From assembly GCF_034932065.1 (NCBI RefSeq), contig NZ_JAYGHP010000001.1:186001-250000 (forward strand): a DNA stretch of 64,000 nucleotides, written 5' to 3'. Source of the DNA: Crocosphaera sp. UHCC 0190. GTDB lineage: Bacteria; Cyanobacteriota; Cyanobacteriia; Cyanobacteriales; Microcystaceae. Below, in pieces: positions 23,391-42,218 of this stretch. The notes beneath the pieces are model-generated. The model did no database searches. It was not told the origin of the DNA and saw nothing but the letters and a program-made list of their open reading frames with translations. Position numbers and translations under genes: made by a program. Every line of letters starts with the position of its first letter. The first letter of the stretch is position 1.

Positions 23391-24644
23391 ATGTCAGAAA
23401 ATAACCCGAACCCTCAACCTACACAACCTTCTTCACGACAAGAAGCTAGAAAAAAAAGAGTTCAAGAGGTGTTAAAATTCTTGAAAATATTAGGTTTTCC
23501 TGTTTCTGGTGGTGGAGTAGCAGGAACAATTATTTTACTCAAAAATGGTCAATATGAATTAGCAGCTATTACTATTTTTGTGAGCATTTTAGCTTTGGTT
23601 ATCGCTATAGGTGGTAAGTTTATTTCACGGGTAATAAATCGCATTTTAGACTCAATTGAAACAGAATTAGAGAACTTAGAAGAACCTCTAGCTAACTGGA
23701 TAGTTAAGCTATTAAAAACCTTTTCTATCAAACTATGGTGGCAGTTAAACCCCAGTTTTCAACGTAAATATTATGATAGTTTAATTGATAGCTTTCGGGA
23801 ATTAAAAATAGAAGGTTTTCGTATTGGTTTACCCGCACTTGATTTAGAAAATGTTTTTGTTTCTTTGCGAGTTAAAACCGGAACCCCTGATAACATTCAT
23901 GGGGTAATTATTCCCTCTCAAATAGATGAAGGTGATCGCCAAATTTGGGACTTTTTAAGCAATATTAAGCAATTTCTAGCCTATCGTCGTCTTGCTGTAA
24001 TTGCGGTCTCTGGTTCGGGAAAAACTACTTTATTAAAGCATTTAACCCTAACTTATGCTAAAGAAAAACATCAAGAATACCAGGCACCAAAATTTATCCC
24101 CATTCTCTTATATTTGCGGAATATTCGTCATCAAATCGCCACAGAAAACCCTCCCAAATTGCCCCAATTGATTCGAGAACATATCCAAAACTTGCCGGCC
24201 GATCCTCCCCTCATTTTGCCCCCAAACTGGCTGGAAGACCAGTTAAAATTGGGTAAATGTTTGGTGATGTTGGACGGACTTGATGAGGTTGCTGATAGCA
24301 TTGAACGGGAAAAAGTCAGTCAATGGGTTAATCAGCAAATGACTGTTTATCGGACAACTGTTTTTATCCTCACTTCCCGACCTCATGGTTATTTGAGTAA
24401 CCCTGTGGAACGAGTGGGAACGGTGTTAGAAGTGCTTCCTTTTAACTCTCAACAGGTTAGGGACTTTATCATCAGTTTGTATCGGCAAAATGAGATTATG
24501 AGGACGGGAAGAAAGTCACCGGCCGTACTTTCTGATGCTGAAAAATTAGCTAATGATTTAATCACACGCATTGAGGATAATCCGGCGATCGCAGCTATGG
24601 CCAAGAATCCTTTATTACTAACTATGATAGCAAATGCAAAATAA
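23391..24644 (+). CDS. Membrane-anchored NACHT NTPase, N-terminal part (truncated)
   Basis: 417 residues. A polar start is followed by two hydrophobic helices (about 33-75), then a linker and a NACHT-type P-loop domain: Walker A AVSGSGKTTLL near residue 205 and Walker B LVMLDGLDEVAD near 287, with LTSRPHGY as sensor. The chain ends at MAKNPLLLTMIANAK and a stop. In intact relatives the sequence continues past LLLTMIA into a helical region that leads to LMQxKTREF; that segment is missing here and the reading shifts to the overlapping frame at 24634. NACHT proteins are signal-transducing or anti-phage STAND ATPases in many bacteria. This copy may be a decaying allele or a split protein. Confidence 0.75.
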   Translation: MSENNPNPQPTQPSSRQEARKKRVQEVLKFLKILGFPVSGGGVAGTIILLKNGQYELAAITIFVSILALVIAIGGKFISRVINRILDSIETELENLEEPLANWIVKLLKTFSIKLWWQLNPSFQRKYYDSLIDSFRELKIEGFRIGLPALDLENVFVSLRVKTGTPDNIHGVIIPSQIDEGDRQIWDFLSNIKQFLAYRRLAVIAVSGSGKTTLLKHLTLTYAKEKHQEYQAPKFIPILLYLRNIRHQIATENPPKLPQLIREHIQNLPADPPLILPPNWLEDQLKLGKCLVMLDGLDEVADSIEREKVSQWVNQQMTVYRTTVFILTSRPHGYLSNPVERVGTVLEVLPFNSQQVRDFIISLYRQNEIMRTGRKSPAVLSDAEKLANDLITRIEDNPAIAAMAKNPLLLTMIANAK

Positions 24645-26238
24645 AACCCGTGAATTTACTCCCATTCAAGGACAAGAAATAATTCAAACGGAACTGGGAC
24701 TATTTGAATTTGCTCACTTGAGTTTTCAGGAATATTTAGCCGCAGCCCAAATTAAGGAATTACAACAAGAAAATATTCTCTTTGAGAATTTTCAAGATCC
24801 TTGGTGGGCTGAAACTATTCGTCTTTATATTGCCCAAAGTGATGCTACTCATCTGATTCAAAAAGCGATAGAAAATCCCACAATTTATACTTTAAGTCTG
24901 GCCTTAGATTGTGAGGAACAAAGTTTAAAGGTTGACCTCGCAACCAGACAACAACTAGACACAATGTTAGAACAGGGTTTAGAATCTCCTGACCCAAAAA
25001 TCGCCACCTTAGCAGCAGAAGTTAAGTTATGGCGGCGCATCAATAATTTATTAGCAATAGACGAAGACCTAGAAATTGATACTATCTATATTACCCGTGC
25101 CGAATATCAACTATTTGTAGACCAATGGTTAAATTCTGAGGAACATTTTCCGTCGGGAACGGCTAAACAACCAATTACACAAGTTAGTTGGTACAATGCG
25201 ATGCGTTTTTGTGCTTGGTTGAGTGCCAAAGCGTTATCCCTGACTCAAGCTCATTCTACAGACACTACTGTATTTTATTACCGATTGCCGACCCTGACAG
25301 AAACCGAAAACTATTGCGCTAGAGAAGATGCAAACTTAGGTTGTTGGACATTGAGAGATAGTGATAGTCAAGACAAGGGTATTCGGGTGGTAAAAACCAA
25401 AATACCGCCTTCTGTGTTTGAATTTGATGTCATCACGGTTAACAGTCAAGGGCAGGAAATTAAACGGCAACGCAGCGCGGCTCCCTATGAAACTGAAAAT
25501 TTGGGCAACAATATCGCCTTAGCTATGGTTTATATTCCTGGGGGGACATTTATGATGGGTTCTCCTAAAAATGAGCAAGATTCGAGCAATTCTGAGCGTC
25601 CTCAACATCAAGTCACTGTCCCGCCTTTCTTCATGGGTAAATATCCTGTAACTCAAGGGCAATGGAAAGCGATCGCTTCCAGAACGGATTTGAAAGTCAA
25701 GATTGACCTGGAACCCAACCCCTCACGCTTTAAAAGGGATGATAGACCCGTAGAACGAGTTAATTGGGATGAAGCCGTAGAATTTTGTCAGCGACTCACT
25801 AAGCTAACGGAAAAGAATTATCAACTCGCTTCTGAAGCGCAATGGGAATACGCTTGTCGTGGGGGGACAAACACCCCCTTCCATTTTGGGGCAACCATTA
25901 CAAAAGCATTAGCAAATTACAATGCTCAACAAACTACCTCTGTTGGTCAATTTCCTCCTAATACTTTCGGTTTATACGATATACACGGTAATGTCTGGGA
26001 ATGGTGCGCTGATGACTGGCATAAAGATTATCAGGGTGCGCCCACTGATGGAAGTGCTTGGATTGATAAAAAAAAGCAAAAAGGTTCAGATTCCGTAGTG
26101 CGGGGCGGTTCCTGGCTCGACTATCCGAATTACTGCCGTTCCGCGATTCGCAACTACTACAGCCGCCGCGACTACCGCGACTACGCTCTCGGTTTTCGGG
26201 TAGTATGCGTATTCGAGAGATCGAATTTTTTGGGTTAA
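24634..26238 (+). CDS. FGE-sulfatase domain protein, C-terminal part of the NACHT gene with a DGR-type tail
   Basis: 534 residues, overlapping the upstream frame by 11 bases (ATGCAAAATAA). It starts with what is normally the middle of the NACHT protein (MQNKTREFTPIQGQEI, then LFEFAHLSFQEYLAAAQIKE), followed by linker helices and a C-terminal formylglycine-generating-enzyme-like / C-type lectin fold: MVYIPGGTFMMGSP, MGKYPVTQGQWKAI, EAQWEYACRGG, FGLYDIHGNVWEWCAD and VVRGGSWLDYPNYC, ending GFRVVCVFERSNFLG. FGE-fold tails are common DGR targets, and residues about 490-525 carry the pattern of a diversified region. A further in-frame loss between IIQTEL and GLFEFAH is likely. Translation could be coupled to the first frame or the gene may be inactive. 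Confidence 0.75.
   Translation: MQNKTREFTPIQGQEIIQTELGLFEFAHLSFQEYLAAAQIKELQQENILFENFQDPWWAETIRLYIAQSDATHLIQKAIENPTIYTLSLALDCEEQSLKVDLATRQQLDTMLEQGLESPDPKIATLAAEVKLWRRINNLLAIDEDLEIDTIYITRAEYQLFVDQWLNSEEHFPSGTAKQPITQVSWYNAMRFCAWLSAKALSLTQAHSTDTTVFYYRLPTLTETENYCAREDANLGCWTLRDSDSQDKGIRVVKTKIPPSVFEFDVITVNSQGQEIKRQRSAAPYETENLGNNIALAMVYIPGGTFMMGSPKNEQDSSNSERPQHQVTVPPFFMGKYPVTQGQWKAIASRTDLKVKIDLEPNPSRFKRDDRPVERVNWDEAVEFCQRLTKLTEKNYQLASEAQWEYACRGGTNTPFHFGATITKALANYNAQQTTSVGQFPPNTFGLYDIHGNVWEWCADDWHKDYQGAPTDGSAWIDKKKQKGSDSVVRGGSWLDYPNYCRSAIRNYYSRRDYRDYALGFRVVCVFERSNFLG
26101..26200 (+). other. Putative DGR variable region (VR) at the end of the FGE-domain gene
   Basis: About 100 bases, from the RGGSW codons to GFRVV. 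At the positions where family members usually have Asn, the codons are CTC, GAC, TAT, TAC, ATT, TAC, TAC, AGC, GAC, TAC, GAC, TAC, GCT and CTC: all end in C or T and each can be derived from AAC, AAT or ATC by changing A only. 61 of the 99 bases 26101-26199 are G or C, against an AT-rich remainder of the gene. Adenine-directed variation in a C-type-lectin fold is the hallmark of a diversity-generating retroelement target. No reverse transcriptase or template repeat is visible in the window. Confidence 0.65.
26211..26226 (+). other. Hairpin just after the putative variable region
   Basis: ATTCGA and TCGAAT form a perfect 6-bp stem around the tetraloop GAGA, about 11 bases after the end of the variable stretch and inside the last codons of the gene. 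Known DGR targets carry a short hairpin or cruciform with a GRNA-type tetraloop at this place that helps target recognition. GAGA fits that loop rule. Confidence 0.55.
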
Positions 26239-27018: not shown

Positions 27019-28326
27019 TCAGAGTAAACTTTTCGCTTTTAACTGTAAATAACGATTAACTAATTGTTCACTAATTTGATTTGCAGGAGCATCTAAAACT
27101 AACACACCTCGTTGTTTTAATTTGGCAAAAGCAACCTGACGCTGTGATAATAAATCTAAAGCAACTGCACGTTGATAAGCTTCATCAACTTTTAGGGTAG
27201 AAGTATGAGCAATAGTATCAACTTGGGGATCTCTTAATGCAATACAAAAAGGCAAATAACGGGGCGTTAATTTTGTCATTGCGGATAATAATTCTGCTGA
27301 GGCAGTTATATCAATAATATCCGTAATTAATACTACCAAAGCGCGGCGTGTTTGTTGTTGAACTAATTGGGAAACTGCCCCTACATAATCAGGTTCTAAT
27401 AATACAGGTTGAATGGGGGTTAAACGGTCTAAAAAAACAGATAATTGATGTTGTCCCCGTTGCGGTGGTATCCACGTCATAACTTGTTTATCAAATACCC
27501 CAATTCCTACTTTATCCCCTCGATGTAAACCCGCTAAAGCTAAGGATAAAGTCGCATTTAAACCCCAATCAAATCGTTTTAAACCTTGCACTTGAGAAGT
27601 CATTAAACGACCTCTATCTAGTAAGATAATTAAAGTTTGTTCTTTATCGGGTTCTAATATTCTAATAAAAGGACGATTTCGCCTCGCGGTTGCTTTCCAA
27701 TCAATTAACCGCATATCATCACCTTTATTGTATTCTTGTAACTCAGAAAATTCAGTTCCTATGCCAAATCTTCGCGCTTGACGCATACTTCCTGTCGCTT
27801 CTAAGGTAAGACGAATAGACAGCGATCGCAACCCAATTAAATCAGGATAAATTGCCACAGTTTCTTGAGCAGGAATTTTCCAATCATACCAGGCCAATTT
27901 CCATTTTCCCAACTGTCTAACTTGAATATTTCCCCAGTTATATTCCCCCCGATGATTAGGATAAATCGTATAACTTAGGGTTTGATTACTGTTGGGTGAT
28001 AAAATACTTTTCAAGGTATTAGTAGAAACCAAAAAATATAAAGGATAGCTATCTTTAATGATAATTTGTGCATTTCTATCCTGATTTTGCACAAACAATT
28101 CAACTAAATTATCCCTACCAATAGAGAGACGATATAAGGGGTTACGGGTAATTTGTACCTGATACTTTTTAACCTGTTGACTATCCCAAATCCCTAAACC
28201 TAGAATAATACTGTCAAAAATTAAGATAAATACAACACTACTTTGAGCATTAAAAATCATGGCAGATAAACCACCAATAATCAAGCCAAATAGTAACAAT
28301 AAATACAGTCTAATAGCAGGAATCAT
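27019..28326 (-). CDS. DUF58 domain protein
   Basis: 435 residues. Two N-terminal hydrophobic helices are followed by a beta-rich region and the DUF58 core GDDMRLIDWKATARRNRPFIR and TLIILLDRGRLM, then a von Willebrand A-like fold with DIIDITAS. DUF58 proteins occur next to MoxR ATPases and membrane proteins and are thought to assist assembly or metal insertion of a partner. Here it is the last gene of the run DUF4129-DUF4350-PAP2-MoxR-DUF58, 14 bases from the MoxR gene. Confidence 0.9.
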   Translation of the reverse strand: MIPAIRLYLLLLFGLIIGGLSAMIFNAQSSVVFILIFDSIILGLGIWDSQQVKKYQVQITRNPLYRLSIGRDNLVELFVQNQDRNAQIIIKDSYPLYFLVSTNTLKSILSPNSNQTLSYTIYPNHRGEYNWGNIQVRQLGKWKLAWYDWKIPAQETVAIYPDLIGLRSLSIRLTLEATGSMRQARRFGIGTEFSELQEYNKGDDMRLIDWKATARRNRPFIRILEPDKEQTLIILLDRGRLMTSQVQGLKRFDWGLNATLSLALAGLHRGDKVGIGVFDKQVMTWIPPQRGQHQLSVFLDRLTPIQPVLLEPDYVGAVSQLVQQQTRRALVVLITDIIDITASAELLSAMTKLTPRYLPFCIALRDPQVDTIAHTSTLKVDEAYQRAVALDLLSQRQVAFAKLKQRGVLVLDAPANQISEQLVNRYLQLKAKSLL

Positions 28327-28340
28327 GGCAGTTTTAATGG

Positions 28341-29291
28341 TTATCTGGGGACAGGAACTTGATTGAGTAAAGAAGCAATTACCGCATCAATTTTTATGCC
28401 ATCTAATTGTGATTCTGGTTTCAAAATTAAACGGTGACGTAAGAGAGGAGAAGCAATGTTTTTGATATCATCAGGGGTTACATAATCTCGTTGAGAAAAC
28501 CAAGCTTGTGCTTTACTTGTTTGTAACCAAGCAACTGCTGCTCTCGGAGATGCACCTAATTCTAAATCAGGATGTTGACGGGTTTTATCAATTAAATTGA
28601 GCAAATAATCAATTATTTTATCATCAACTTTGATATTTTGAATTTGTTGACGAGCTTGCAAAATTTCTTCTACAGTAGCGATGGGTTGCAGTTGATCTAA
28701 ATCTATTTTTTTACCCTTAAATCCTTGTTGAAAATTGAGTAACATTTGTTTAGCTGCTTCTGGGGGGGGATAATCAATAATTAGCTTAAATAAAAAGCGA
28801 TCTAATTGTGCTTCTGGTAGGGGATAAGTTCCTTCAAATTCTAGGGGGTTTTGGGTAGCAGCAACCCAAAATAAGGGAGATAAAACTAAGGTTTCGCCAT
28901 CTAAAGTGACTTGTTGTTCTTCCATTGCTTCTAACAGTGCAGATTGAGTTTTAGGGGGAGTCCGGTTAATTTCATCTGCGAGAAGAATTTCCGTAAAAAT
29001 GGGCCCTTTTTGCAGGGTAAAACTACGACTATTGAAATCAAAAATATTGGTTCCTAAGATATCTGAAGGAAGAATATCAGGAGTTAGTTGAACCCGTCTA
29101 AAATCTGCTTGAATTAATTTAGATAGAACTTTGACTAAAAGGGTTTTTCCCGTTCCTGGGACACCTTCAAGAATAACATGGCCCCCACTGAGAAGTGCGA
29201 CTAATAATTGTTTGATGACAAGGGGTTGACCAACAATAATTTTGTTAAGATTTTGACTAAGATTGATTAAGATTTCTGGTGTAAGGTTCAT
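28341..29291 (-). CDS. MoxR family AAA+ ATPase
   Basis: 316 residues. Walker A EGVPGTGKTLLVKVL, Walker B ILLADEINRTPPKTQSALLEAMEE, sensor 1 VAATQNPLEFEGTYPLPEAQLDRFLFK and the C-terminal lid with ASPRAAVAWL are all visible. MoxR ATPases act as chaperones, usually with DUF58/VWA proteins, in maturation of secreted or membrane enzymes. The stop is 14 bases from the DUF58 start; the pair is the core of the gene cluster. Confidence 0.93.
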   Translation of the reverse strand: MNLTPEILINLSQNLNKIIVGQPLVIKQLLVALLSGGHVILEGVPGTGKTLLVKVLSKLIQADFRRVQLTPDILPSDILGTNIFDFNSRSFTLQKGPIFTEILLADEINRTPPKTQSALLEAMEEQQVTLDGETLVLSPLFWVAATQNPLEFEGTYPLPEAQLDRFLFKLIIDYPPPEAAKQMLLNFQQGFKGKKIDLDQLQPIATVEEILQARQQIQNIKVDDKIIDYLLNLIDKTRQHPDLELGASPRAAVAWLQTSKAQAWFSQRDYVTPDDIKNIASPLLRHRLILKPESQLDGIKIDAVIASLLNQVPVPR

Positions 29292-39305: not shown

Positions 39306-42218
39306 GTGAATCAACCATTAACATCGCCGCAACTAAATATTAAAGACCTCTTTCCCTTTGACCTCGATAAATTTCAAGAACAGGCGATCGCCGCTTTGGC
39401 CAAGGGAAAATCTGTCGTGGTTTGCGCCCCCACGGGATCGGGAAAAACAGTCCTTGGGGAATATGCCATCTATCGCGCCTTAAATTTAGGAAAGCGGGTT
39501 TTTTACACCACACCCCTCAAAGCCCTCTCTAATCAGAAATTTAGGGACTTTCAAGAACAATTTGCCACCACAGAAAACGGCATCGATAATGAGATTGTGG
39601 GCTTAATTACCGGAGATATGGTCATCAATGCCAATGCCTCCATCGTGATCATGACCACAGAAATTTTCCGTAATATGCTCTATGAAACCCCCATTGGTCA
39701 AGTGGGAACCTCCTTAGAAAACGTGGCCACGGTAATTTTAGATGAATGTCATTACATTAGCGATCGCGGACGGGGTACAGTTTGGGAAGAATCGATCATT
39801 TATTGTCCCCCCACCATCCAATTAGTGGCCCTTTCGGCCACCATTGGCAACCCCGAAGAATTGACTGACTGGATCAACCAAGTGCGAAAAACCGCCCCAA
39901 ACATTGATCCTGCCACCACATCCGTCAGTTTATGTGAACTAATTAACTCAGATTTTCGGCCCGTTCCCCTGCGCTTCTATTTTAGTAATAAAACCGGACT
40001 CCATCCCTTACTCAATGGGCAACAAACCGCCCTCAACCCCCGCCTCAAACCCAAAGGGCCTCGCAATAAACGCAACCGAGTTAAACGAGAAGACTGCCCC
40101 AATACCTTCAAAGTAGTTCAACAATTATATGAACGGGACATCTTACCCGCCATTTATGTCATTTTCAGTCGTCGGGGTTGTGATACGGCTGTCGAAAAAC
40201 TGAGTGGCATTGTTTTAGTTTCCCCAGAAGAAGCCCATGCCATTCAATACAACCTGTTAACTTTCTTCTTAGGCAACAATACAGAATTACAAGAAATTCT
40301 GTTGAAAGCCGTTAAAACTGAAAATCCTCCCTTATATCAACCCCTTTTGGATTTTTTTACTAACCCTGCCCCTGATGCTGGCATTTTCCCCTATTTAGCC
40401 GCAGATGAAGAGAGTAAAACCCATTTATTCCATCTTTTGGCCAGTAGTTGTAAGTTAGTGAGAGGGGAACAACTCGAACCCTTAACCAGAGGCATTGCCG
40501 CCCACCATGCGGGCATTTTACCCGTGTGGAAAGAATTAGTGGAACAATTATTTGAAGCAGGGTTAGTCAAGGTCGTTTTTGCCACCGCCACCCTTTCCGC
40601 CGGAATTAATATGCCCGCGAGAACTACCGTGATCTCTGCCCTGTCTAAACGGACAGACAAGGGCCACAGTATGTTAACTCCGTCAGAATTCTTACAAATT
40701 GCGGGACGGGCCGGACGACGAGGCATGGATGAGGTGGGCTATGTCGTCACTATCCAAACCCCCTTTGAAGGGGCGACAGAAGCCGCTTATTTGGCCACGG
40801 CCCAGTCAGAACCCCTGAAAAGCTGTTTTACTCCTTCCTATGGCATGGTCTTAAACCTCCTGCAAAAACATACCCTAACGGAAGCTAAAGACCTCTTAGA
40901 AAAGAGTTTTGCCGAATATTTAGCCCAACTAAAACTCGAACCCGAACAACAGGCGATCGCCTATTTAACCCAAGAATTAGCCAAACTTGACATTGAATTA
41001 GGGGGAATCACCGAAAGCGAACTGTTAGGGTATGAAAAGTTAAAAGGCCGTTTGAGAGAAGCGGAAAGACTGTTAACAACCTTGGCAGAACAAGCTGAGG
41101 AACGACGTAAACAAGAAATTTTTGGGCAATTACCTCAATTAAACCTCGGAGATTTAGTTTATTTAAAAGGTAAACGCTTAAAAATTGCTAACCCCCAATT
41201 AGCTGCCGTTGTGGCATTGGTGTCTGGTTCGGGCCAAATTCATGATTTACTCTGTTTAGGTGGGGATAATTATTGGTATTTGGTAAAACGGGGAGACATT
41301 GTCGATGTCAATGGGGACTCTTTACCCCTCTCTTGTCTGAATAATTTAACCCTGCCGAATGTTAAAAATTTGTCCTTGGGGAAAGGGCCCAAAGGAGACA
41401 AAGGTTGTGAAGAAATTTGTCAGCAGATGAGAGATCGCGCCTTTGAGAGAATGACACCCTCAGAAGTGATCGATCAACAAAACCGTTTAGATCAGGCACA
41501 ACAATTATTAGATCAACATCCCCTGGGACAACAAAAAAATGCCACCCGTTTATTAAAATTACATCACCAACGGTTGAGTTTACGGGAACAACTTCATCTG
41601 AGTCAAATTAAGTTTCAAAAATTACAATCTCATCAATCTTATTATTGGGAAGAATTTCTGAATCTAATTGAAATCTTACGGGAGTTTGGGGCTTTAGATG
41701 GTTATACTCCCACTCCCTTAGGAGAAGCGGCCGCTACCATGCGAGGGGAAAATGAATTATGGTTAGGATTGGTGTTTATGTCAGGTATTTTAAATCACCT
41801 GGAACCCCACCAATTAGCGGCTGCTGTCAGTGCCATTATTACGGAAACTTTGCGCCCTGATACCTGGACAAATTATTTACCTTCTCCAGAGGTTTTAAGC
41901 TTGTTTCGGGAGTCCCCTGAGCATGGGATTAGTATTGGAGAAATGCGTCGTTTATTGAATCAAACTCAGCGACGTTATCATATTACTATTCCTGTGTGGT
42001 TAGAGTTAGAATTAATGGGGTTAATAGAACAGTGGGCTTTAGGCACTGACTGGCAAGTCTTATGTGAAAATACCAGTTTAGATGAAGGGGACTTAGTGCG
42101 TTTATTACGACGAACTATTGATTTATTATGGCAAATTCCCCAAATGCCAGGGGTTGCTGGAAGTTTAAGAACAACGGCAAAAGAAGCGATTATGCAGTTA
42201 AAACGCTTTCCCATTTAA
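39306..42218 (+). CDS. Ski2-like DExH-box helicase
   Basis: 970 residues. Motif I APTGSGKT, motif II DECHYI, motif III LSATIGN, motif VI QIAGRAGRRGMDEVG; the family order, with LKALSNQKF after motif I and a long C-terminal region with the DSHCT-like domain (from about residue 800), marks a Ski2/Mtr4-like (HelY type) helicase. It probably acts on RNA or structured nucleic acid. The start is GTG at 39306, with AACC context and no in-frame ATG nearby. HIP1 and GC-rich codons mark it as an ordinary chromosomal gene. Confidence 0.92.
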   Translation: MNQPLTSPQLNIKDLFPFDLDKFQEQAIAALAKGKSVVVCAPTGSGKTVLGEYAIYRALNLGKRVFYTTPLKALSNQKFRDFQEQFATTENGIDNEIVGLITGDMVINANASIVIMTTEIFRNMLYETPIGQVGTSLENVATVILDECHYISDRGRGTVWEESIIYCPPTIQLVALSATIGNPEELTDWINQVRKTAPNIDPATTSVSLCELINSDFRPVPLRFYFSNKTGLHPLLNGQQTALNPRLKPKGPRNKRNRVKREDCPNTFKVVQQLYERDILPAIYVIFSRRGCDTAVEKLSGIVLVSPEEAHAIQYNLLTFFLGNNTELQEILLKAVKTENPPLYQPLLDFFTNPAPDAGIFPYLAADEESKTHLFHLLASSCKLVRGEQLEPLTRGIAAHHAGILPVWKELVEQLFEAGLVKVVFATATLSAGINMPARTTVISALSKRTDKGHSMLTPSEFLQIAGRAGRRGMDEVGYVVTIQTPFEGATEAAYLATAQSEPLKSCFTPSYGMVLNLLQKHTLTEAKDLLEKSFAEYLAQLKLEPEQQAIAYLTQELAKLDIELGGITESELLGYEKLKGRLREAERLLTTLAEQAEERRKQEIFGQLPQLNLGDLVYLKGKRLKIANPQLAAVVALVSGSGQIHDLLCLGGDNYWYLVKRGDIVDVNGDSLPLSCLNNLTLPNVKNLSLGKGPKGDKGCEEICQQMRDRAFERMTPSEVIDQQNRLDQAQQLLDQHPLGQQKNATRLLKLHHQRLSLREQLHLSQIKFQKLQSHQSYYWEEFLNLIEILREFGALDGYTPTPLGEAAATMRGENELWLGLVFMSGILNHLEPHQLAAAVSAIITETLRPDTWTNYLPSPEVLSLFRESPEHGISIGEMRRLLNQTQRRYHITIPVWLELELMGLIEQWALGTDWQVLCENTSLDEGDLVRLLRRTIDLLWQIPQMPGVAGSLRTTAKEAIMQLKRFPI

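Follow-up and report, generated by a model that had tools for sequence, protein, structure and literature searches.

The NACHT-FGE gene of Crocosphaera sp. UHCC 0190 ends in a variable region (VR) that we read as an orphan, probably fossil, DGR target, with a probability of roughly 0.8. Within the 64,000-nucleotide stretch of DNA that was analysed (referred to as the window), this VR is homologous to the template of a relative and differs from it with a clear adenine bias, the sequence following it has diverged, the gene that carries it is split and shortened, and the genome gave no match to a DGR reverse transcriptase (RT), to Avd or to a template repeat (TR). The features on which this reading is based are listed in Table 1.

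Table 1. Coordinates of the features discussed (positions in the window unless another locus or genome is named)
Feature	Position	Strand	Basis or remark
ORF 1, 417 aa: N-terminal region and NACHT ATPase domain	23391..24644	+	PF05729
Break	24626..24650	+	about 51 orthologue residues absent, with frame change; aligned with G029, G254 and G182, and local sequence compared with G029
ORF 2, 534 aa: remaining NACHT protein and FGE domain	24634..26238	+	PF03781, E = 6.4e-62
FGE-sulfatase / C-type-lectin-like domain, its end being the VR	25522..26205	+	best stretch of PF03781, ORF 2 residues 297-524
DGR-type VR	26101..26215	+	33 codons (RGGSW...GFR) and 16 bases; gap-free alignment with the G263 template
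Diverged tail	26216..26238	+	window reads AGAGATCGAATTTTTTGGG, both G263 VRs read GGGAGAACTCTCTAACCC; stop codon moved
FGE gene with GC-rich VR-like end	L270:5183-7285 (G000:C1)		about 8.7 kb upstream of the window
FGE gene with GC-rich VR-like end	L271:7273-8348 (G000:C19)		
TR of G263	G263:C2:26806-26920		
DGR RT of G263	G263:C2:26948-28000		

Adenine signature of the variable region

The VR is located near the 3′ end of the FGE ORF, 23 bases short of its end; its 3′ limit lies at about 26215, and blastn against a template neighbourhood matched the window at 26099-26220. The best match outside its own genome was found in G263, a genome of the same family (genus g7) in which the TR adjoins a full-length DGR RT. 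Both sequences align without gaps over 115 bases, with differences at 13 of the 30 template A but at only 4 of the 85 other bases (Fisher P = 3e-6), i.e., 81/85 non-A template bases are retained by the window VR. Differences are therefore concentrated at template adenines, as in a DGR VR, with the template being that of another genome. The two resident VRs of G263 differ from their own TR at 14/30 and 17/30 A and at 0/85 other bases, and when the roles were reversed (i.e., with the window sequence as template) the A bias was absent (1/18 A vs. 16/97 other, P = 0.96). The four non-A differences from this nearest template suggest that the exact ancestral template differed from any that was found.

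A second comparison, with the template of G033, yielded differences at 18/35 A and 9/80 other bases (P = 8e-6). G033 carries a complete DGR (L072), arranged as VR gene, Avd, RT, TR and VR gene, and a similar arrangement is present in G042 (L075). Its Avd is matched by NF033474 (E = 1e-40, above the cut-off) as well as by PF22296, and its RT is matched by PF00078 and contains GNLTSQ and YVDD, which we take to be DGR RT motifs. The templates of both the G263 (L217) and the G033 (L072) cassettes align gap-free with the window VR and the targets are alike in being of FGE type, but those cassettes have RT, Avd and TR, for which the window genome is without matches. Non-A identity to the G263 template amounted to 96% (of 71 bases compared) for the window VR, vs. 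58-66% for three other FGE genes of the same genome (L003, L004, L006).

The earlier note on this DNA had listed 14 codons at positions where Asn is often found in this domain family, and these are present exactly as claimed. The GC-richness that it described is likewise borne out, with 61/99 bases being G or C at 26101-26199, vs. 38.0% in the window and 41.4% in the remainder of ORF 2. Only 13 of the 63,902 99-mers of the window have at least 61 GC, with starts in two places (26092-26102 and 40701-40707). The second of these (approximately 40701-40805) is the sole other place in the window with such 99-mers.

While all 14 codons indeed end in C or T, this carries little weight alone (P = 0.015 for these amino acids at the local codon use), as Asp and Tyr have no codons of another kind. 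In contrast, the presence of a third-base C in 11 of them, with 2.2 expected (P = 1.6e-7, codon use from 16,771 window codons), is strong evidence. The further claim that each codon could be reached by changes at A only holds for 11 of the 14 (comprising 13 adenines, compared with the G263 template), and would extend to a twelfth only if AAC stood in the lost template; opposite the first CTC, the G263 template has GGC (a non-A difference) and the L072 and L222 templates have AAC. The claim fails for ATT and the first GAC (of RRD), which are identical in the G263 template and are therefore not mutated positions. Adenine mutagenesis from a template, as originally proposed, is nevertheless the best reading of the 13/30 vs. 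4/85 distribution and of the third-base C excess.

A split host gene with a diverged tail

The domain architecture proposed earlier, a NACHT ATPase followed by an FGE/C-type-lectin-like domain, is supported by profile and structure matches. NACHT was recognized in ORF 1 by PF05729 (E = 2.2e-11, 44.3 bits vs. a cut-off of 26.7), and in addition to PF03781 the FGE domain matched the PDB entries of PvdO (5hha, E = 2e-40) and of the Treponema variable protein (2y3c, E = 2e-22). By the latter sequence match, the domain shares the FGE-like C-type-lectin fold of Treponema denticola TvpA, which PMC7159879 assigns to a DGR system; unlike TvpA, the domain in the window is preceded by a NACHT ATPase and has been orphaned. 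Neither ORF was matched by PADLOC at E <= 0.01, and since all NCBIfam matches of ORF 2 were far under their cut-offs, no enzyme name is given for it.

Instead of a single NACHT-FGE chain, the window contains two ORFs that overlap by 11 bases in different frames. Single-frame orthologues occur in G029 (1088 aa, with 72% identity to ORF 1), G254 (1066 aa), G182 (1145 aa) and as two Pseudanabaena genes. Compared with these, the window gene misses about 51 residues past the NACHT core, with the frame shift that gives the two ORFs located at this first gap, and 29 more ahead of EFAHLSFQEYLAA; an insert that is variable among the orthologues is also absent. The orthologue of G017 is broken as well (a 315-codon frame with one TAA). 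Judged from its sequence, the window gene thus looks broken, a point beyond what the earlier note described, although ORF 2 could still be made and used, both ORFs being long and the FGE domain whole. Promoter- and terminator-like sites were found at shuffle level. Just downstream, at 27019-29291 on the minus strand, Pfam recognizes a DUF58/VWA protein and a MoxR-type AAA ATPase; MoxR-vWA pairs figure in conflict systems (PMC7159879), and the present one may be an ordinary pair.

The 3′ ends of the orthologues (G029, G254, G182 and both Pseudanabaena genes) consist of other FGE C-termini or other VR-like segments, and even G029, the nearest orthologue, has a C-terminus that differs from that of the window gene. 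The sequence after a VR is the integration sequence (IMH). The window and the G263 VRs are shared up to GTATTCG and divergent beyond, and many other VRs have a tail close to GGGAGAACTCTCTAACCC, which the window tail does not resemble. The integration site may thus have been lost in the window gene, an interpretation that is not decisive, since some other VRs (both of L074) are also without this tail.

Search for DGR machinery and further relics

The host genome (G000; 4.43 Mb in 38 contigs, 99.96% complete) contained none of the three components of a complete DGR. A profile search with RVT_1 gave 0 matches at E <= 10, neither a DGR RT nor Avd was matched, and there was no second copy of the template repeat, the VR itself being the sole match. 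Among relatives, RVT_1 was detected in 41/57 genomes, a DGR RT in 36/77 and, in the same search, Avd in 7/16. An active DGR in the vicinity was rejected. Neither of two DGR RTs nor an Avd was matched by tblastn at E <= 1 across the window and L269-L271, which belong to the same genome, and blastn with template neighbourhoods gave, apart from the VRs, only short matches in the window (E 0.069-0.84). Outside the window, the latter search gave a 33-base match (E 2e-8) at L270:13234-13268.

These results do not bear out the active system that the earlier note implied for this genome. Its proposed search for a template next to an RT and an avd gene found none, and the joint lack of RT and template that it had held against its own reading is what we observed; because matching templates exist in relatives, this speaks only against present activity. 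It is possible that a small replicon is missing from the 38-contig assembly.

Two further FGE genes of this genome (on L270 and L271) have a GC-rich VR-like end, with a 22-base tail (GTGCGTTCATCCCCCAGGACTT) that is common to both and to a gene of Crocosphaera sp. MO_188.B44 (L125). The gene on C19 is disrupted and spread across a number of frames (of 239, 314 and 109 codons). No template for these two ends was found, and their fit to the G263 template is poorer than that of the window VR (differences at 16/28 A and 15/71 other bases for L008, and at 16/26 A and 26/70 other bases for L005). Both are probably VR relics of a second DGR class, which is a weaker claim than that made for the window. 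They point to former DGR activity in this lineage, transfers being possible too.

A survey that took genomes with complete DGR cassettes (PMC7517822) covers cyanobacterial DGRs whose variable proteins are of C-type-lectin type and whose targets can be remote. These have the same 3′-end VR and C-terminal C-type-lectin/FGE-like domain as the window gene, which likewise shows adenine-directed template differences; those DGRs have full cassettes, whereas RT, Avd and template were not found in the window genome. In Nostoc sp. PCC 7120, the same survey describes the paralogue all3226, which retains a remnant of TR-VR homology and has neither RT genes nor RT pseudogenes close by (PMC7517822), so remnant VRs that lack an RT in their vicinity are already in print and their kind is known. 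Two DGRs are present at other loci of PCC 7120, while none was found in the window genome, where the gene is also split. In the portions of the literature available to us, we found neither a genome that bears VR footprints and has no DGR RT at all nor a count of such genomes, though either may still be in print.

Orphan variable regions in the order and their origin

DNA searches revealed similar segments in 23/58 genomes and, across the same order, in 77/291 (own genome included in both counts), the 291 being those covered out of 300 requested. A DGR RT match was obtained in 36 of these 77 genomes, all of which have a VR/TR-like match, and was lacking in the other 41, among them the present genome. 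RT-less is defined here as no DGR RT match at E <= 1e-40; G022, with a 63-residue RT remnant (E = 3e-19), thus falls into this group, and the RT matches of at least four of the 36 (G272, G274, G283, G291) are partial only. The RT-less genomes include some assembled in 1-5 contigs, namely G250, G295, G229, G265, G233, G136, G012 and G149.

A signature test, passed at P < 1e-3 together with >=85% non-A identity to whichever of 29 templates fitted best, was applied to 21 of the 41 RT-less genomes. From these, 18 segments could be extracted, of which 16 passed and two failed (G057, G039), while three genomes gave none (G276, G017, G009). Five of the 16 passes represent a single g7 VR, which carries one change in one of them, and are therefore not independent. 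Among 16 control loci, 13 gave 18 segments, none of which passed although 6/18 reached P < 1e-3. One control FGE segment, from a Magnetospira MAG (L178), reached P = 1e-7 with 83% of the non-A bases of the G263 template retained, and may be a DGR VR itself. Orphan VRs thus recur in this cyanobacterial order. Intermediate stages were also encountered, i.e., G029 (C177, L073) has a DGR RT gene that is split in two, the parts being separated by a second small ORF, and the RT remnant of G022 lies near a VR-like match.

One VR of genus g7 (L192-L196, L198, L199), carried by what by eye is a TIR-like FGE gene, is identical over 99 bases in six of seven loci, with one difference in the seventh. Up to 1.4 kb upstream of it, the six loci with the identical VR are only 82-97% identical. 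Two of these six genomes (G006, G275) have a DGR RT. Taken together, this VR is not being rewritten. Because the 150 bases 3′ of it are also near-identical (96-100% among five loci), recent spread is an alternative to selection.

For the window, our preferred reading supposes that in an ancestor, or in the donor of the gene's 3′ end, a DGR RT and Avd copied a template near-identical to that of G263. Adenines of the template RNA would have been misread during copying, and the cDNA would have been pasted into the 3′ end of the NACHT-FGE gene, thereby rewriting residues of the C-type-lectin-like domain. RT, Avd and template would then have been lost, after which the sequence following the VR would have diverged; the gene would also have lost internal segments and its single reading frame. 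This order of events is inferred, as are the end of mutagenesis and the loss of the protein's function as a sensor.

Alternatively, recombination or horizontal transfer may have brought in a segment that was already diversified, without mutagenesis ever having occurred in this lineage. The nearest template belonging to another genus (g7), the different C-terminus of the nearest orthologue and the g7 VR itself, whose identity across loci indicates that VR-bearing genes may spread, all point this way. The two further VR-like relics, with their other tail, suggest past DGR work in the lineage, unless they too were transferred, and we consider such an import unlikely, if by some distance the most serious competitor. 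It is a sub-case of the fossil-target explanation, with which it shares the DGR origin.

It is improbable that the VR is still being diversified as a remote target, by RT, Avd and template on a missing replicon or contig or on a transient mobile element. Remote targets are known in cyanobacteria (PMC7517822), the assembly is in 38 contigs and the VR frame is open, but a genome of 99.96% completeness without RT, Avd or TR matches, the diverged tail and the split host gene argue against it. That no DGR was involved at all, and that an ordinary FGE C-terminus gained GC-rich, C-ending codons by chance, is hardly credible: the RGGSW...GFR frame is common to FGE proteins and, with 6/18 controls below 1e-3, a low Fisher P does not settle the matter by itself, but chance does not fit the gap-free retention of 81 of 85 non-A template bases, the codon bias (P = 1.6e-7), or the 0/18 controls that pass once 85% non-A identity is demanded.

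Read as a fossil target, the window VR illustrates that a DGR footprint can be recognized in a genome without an RT of its own via the templates of relatives, and that counts starting from the RT miss such genes. The relatives form a natural experiment, in which the same VR type occurs with and without machinery; together with the identical g7 VR and its less conserved upstream region (82-97%), this makes the fixation and retention of DGR variants after loss of the mutator testable. Tentatively, and with more doubt than confidence, we suggest that the DGRs of this order are transient mutators, which make lectin-domain variants of an immune-type protein, after which the machinery is lost and chosen variants are fixed. 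If so, the window VR would belong, at a late stage and in decay, to a large class of frozen variants, which show up as VRs in those VR-bearing genomes (about half) that gave no DGR RT match.
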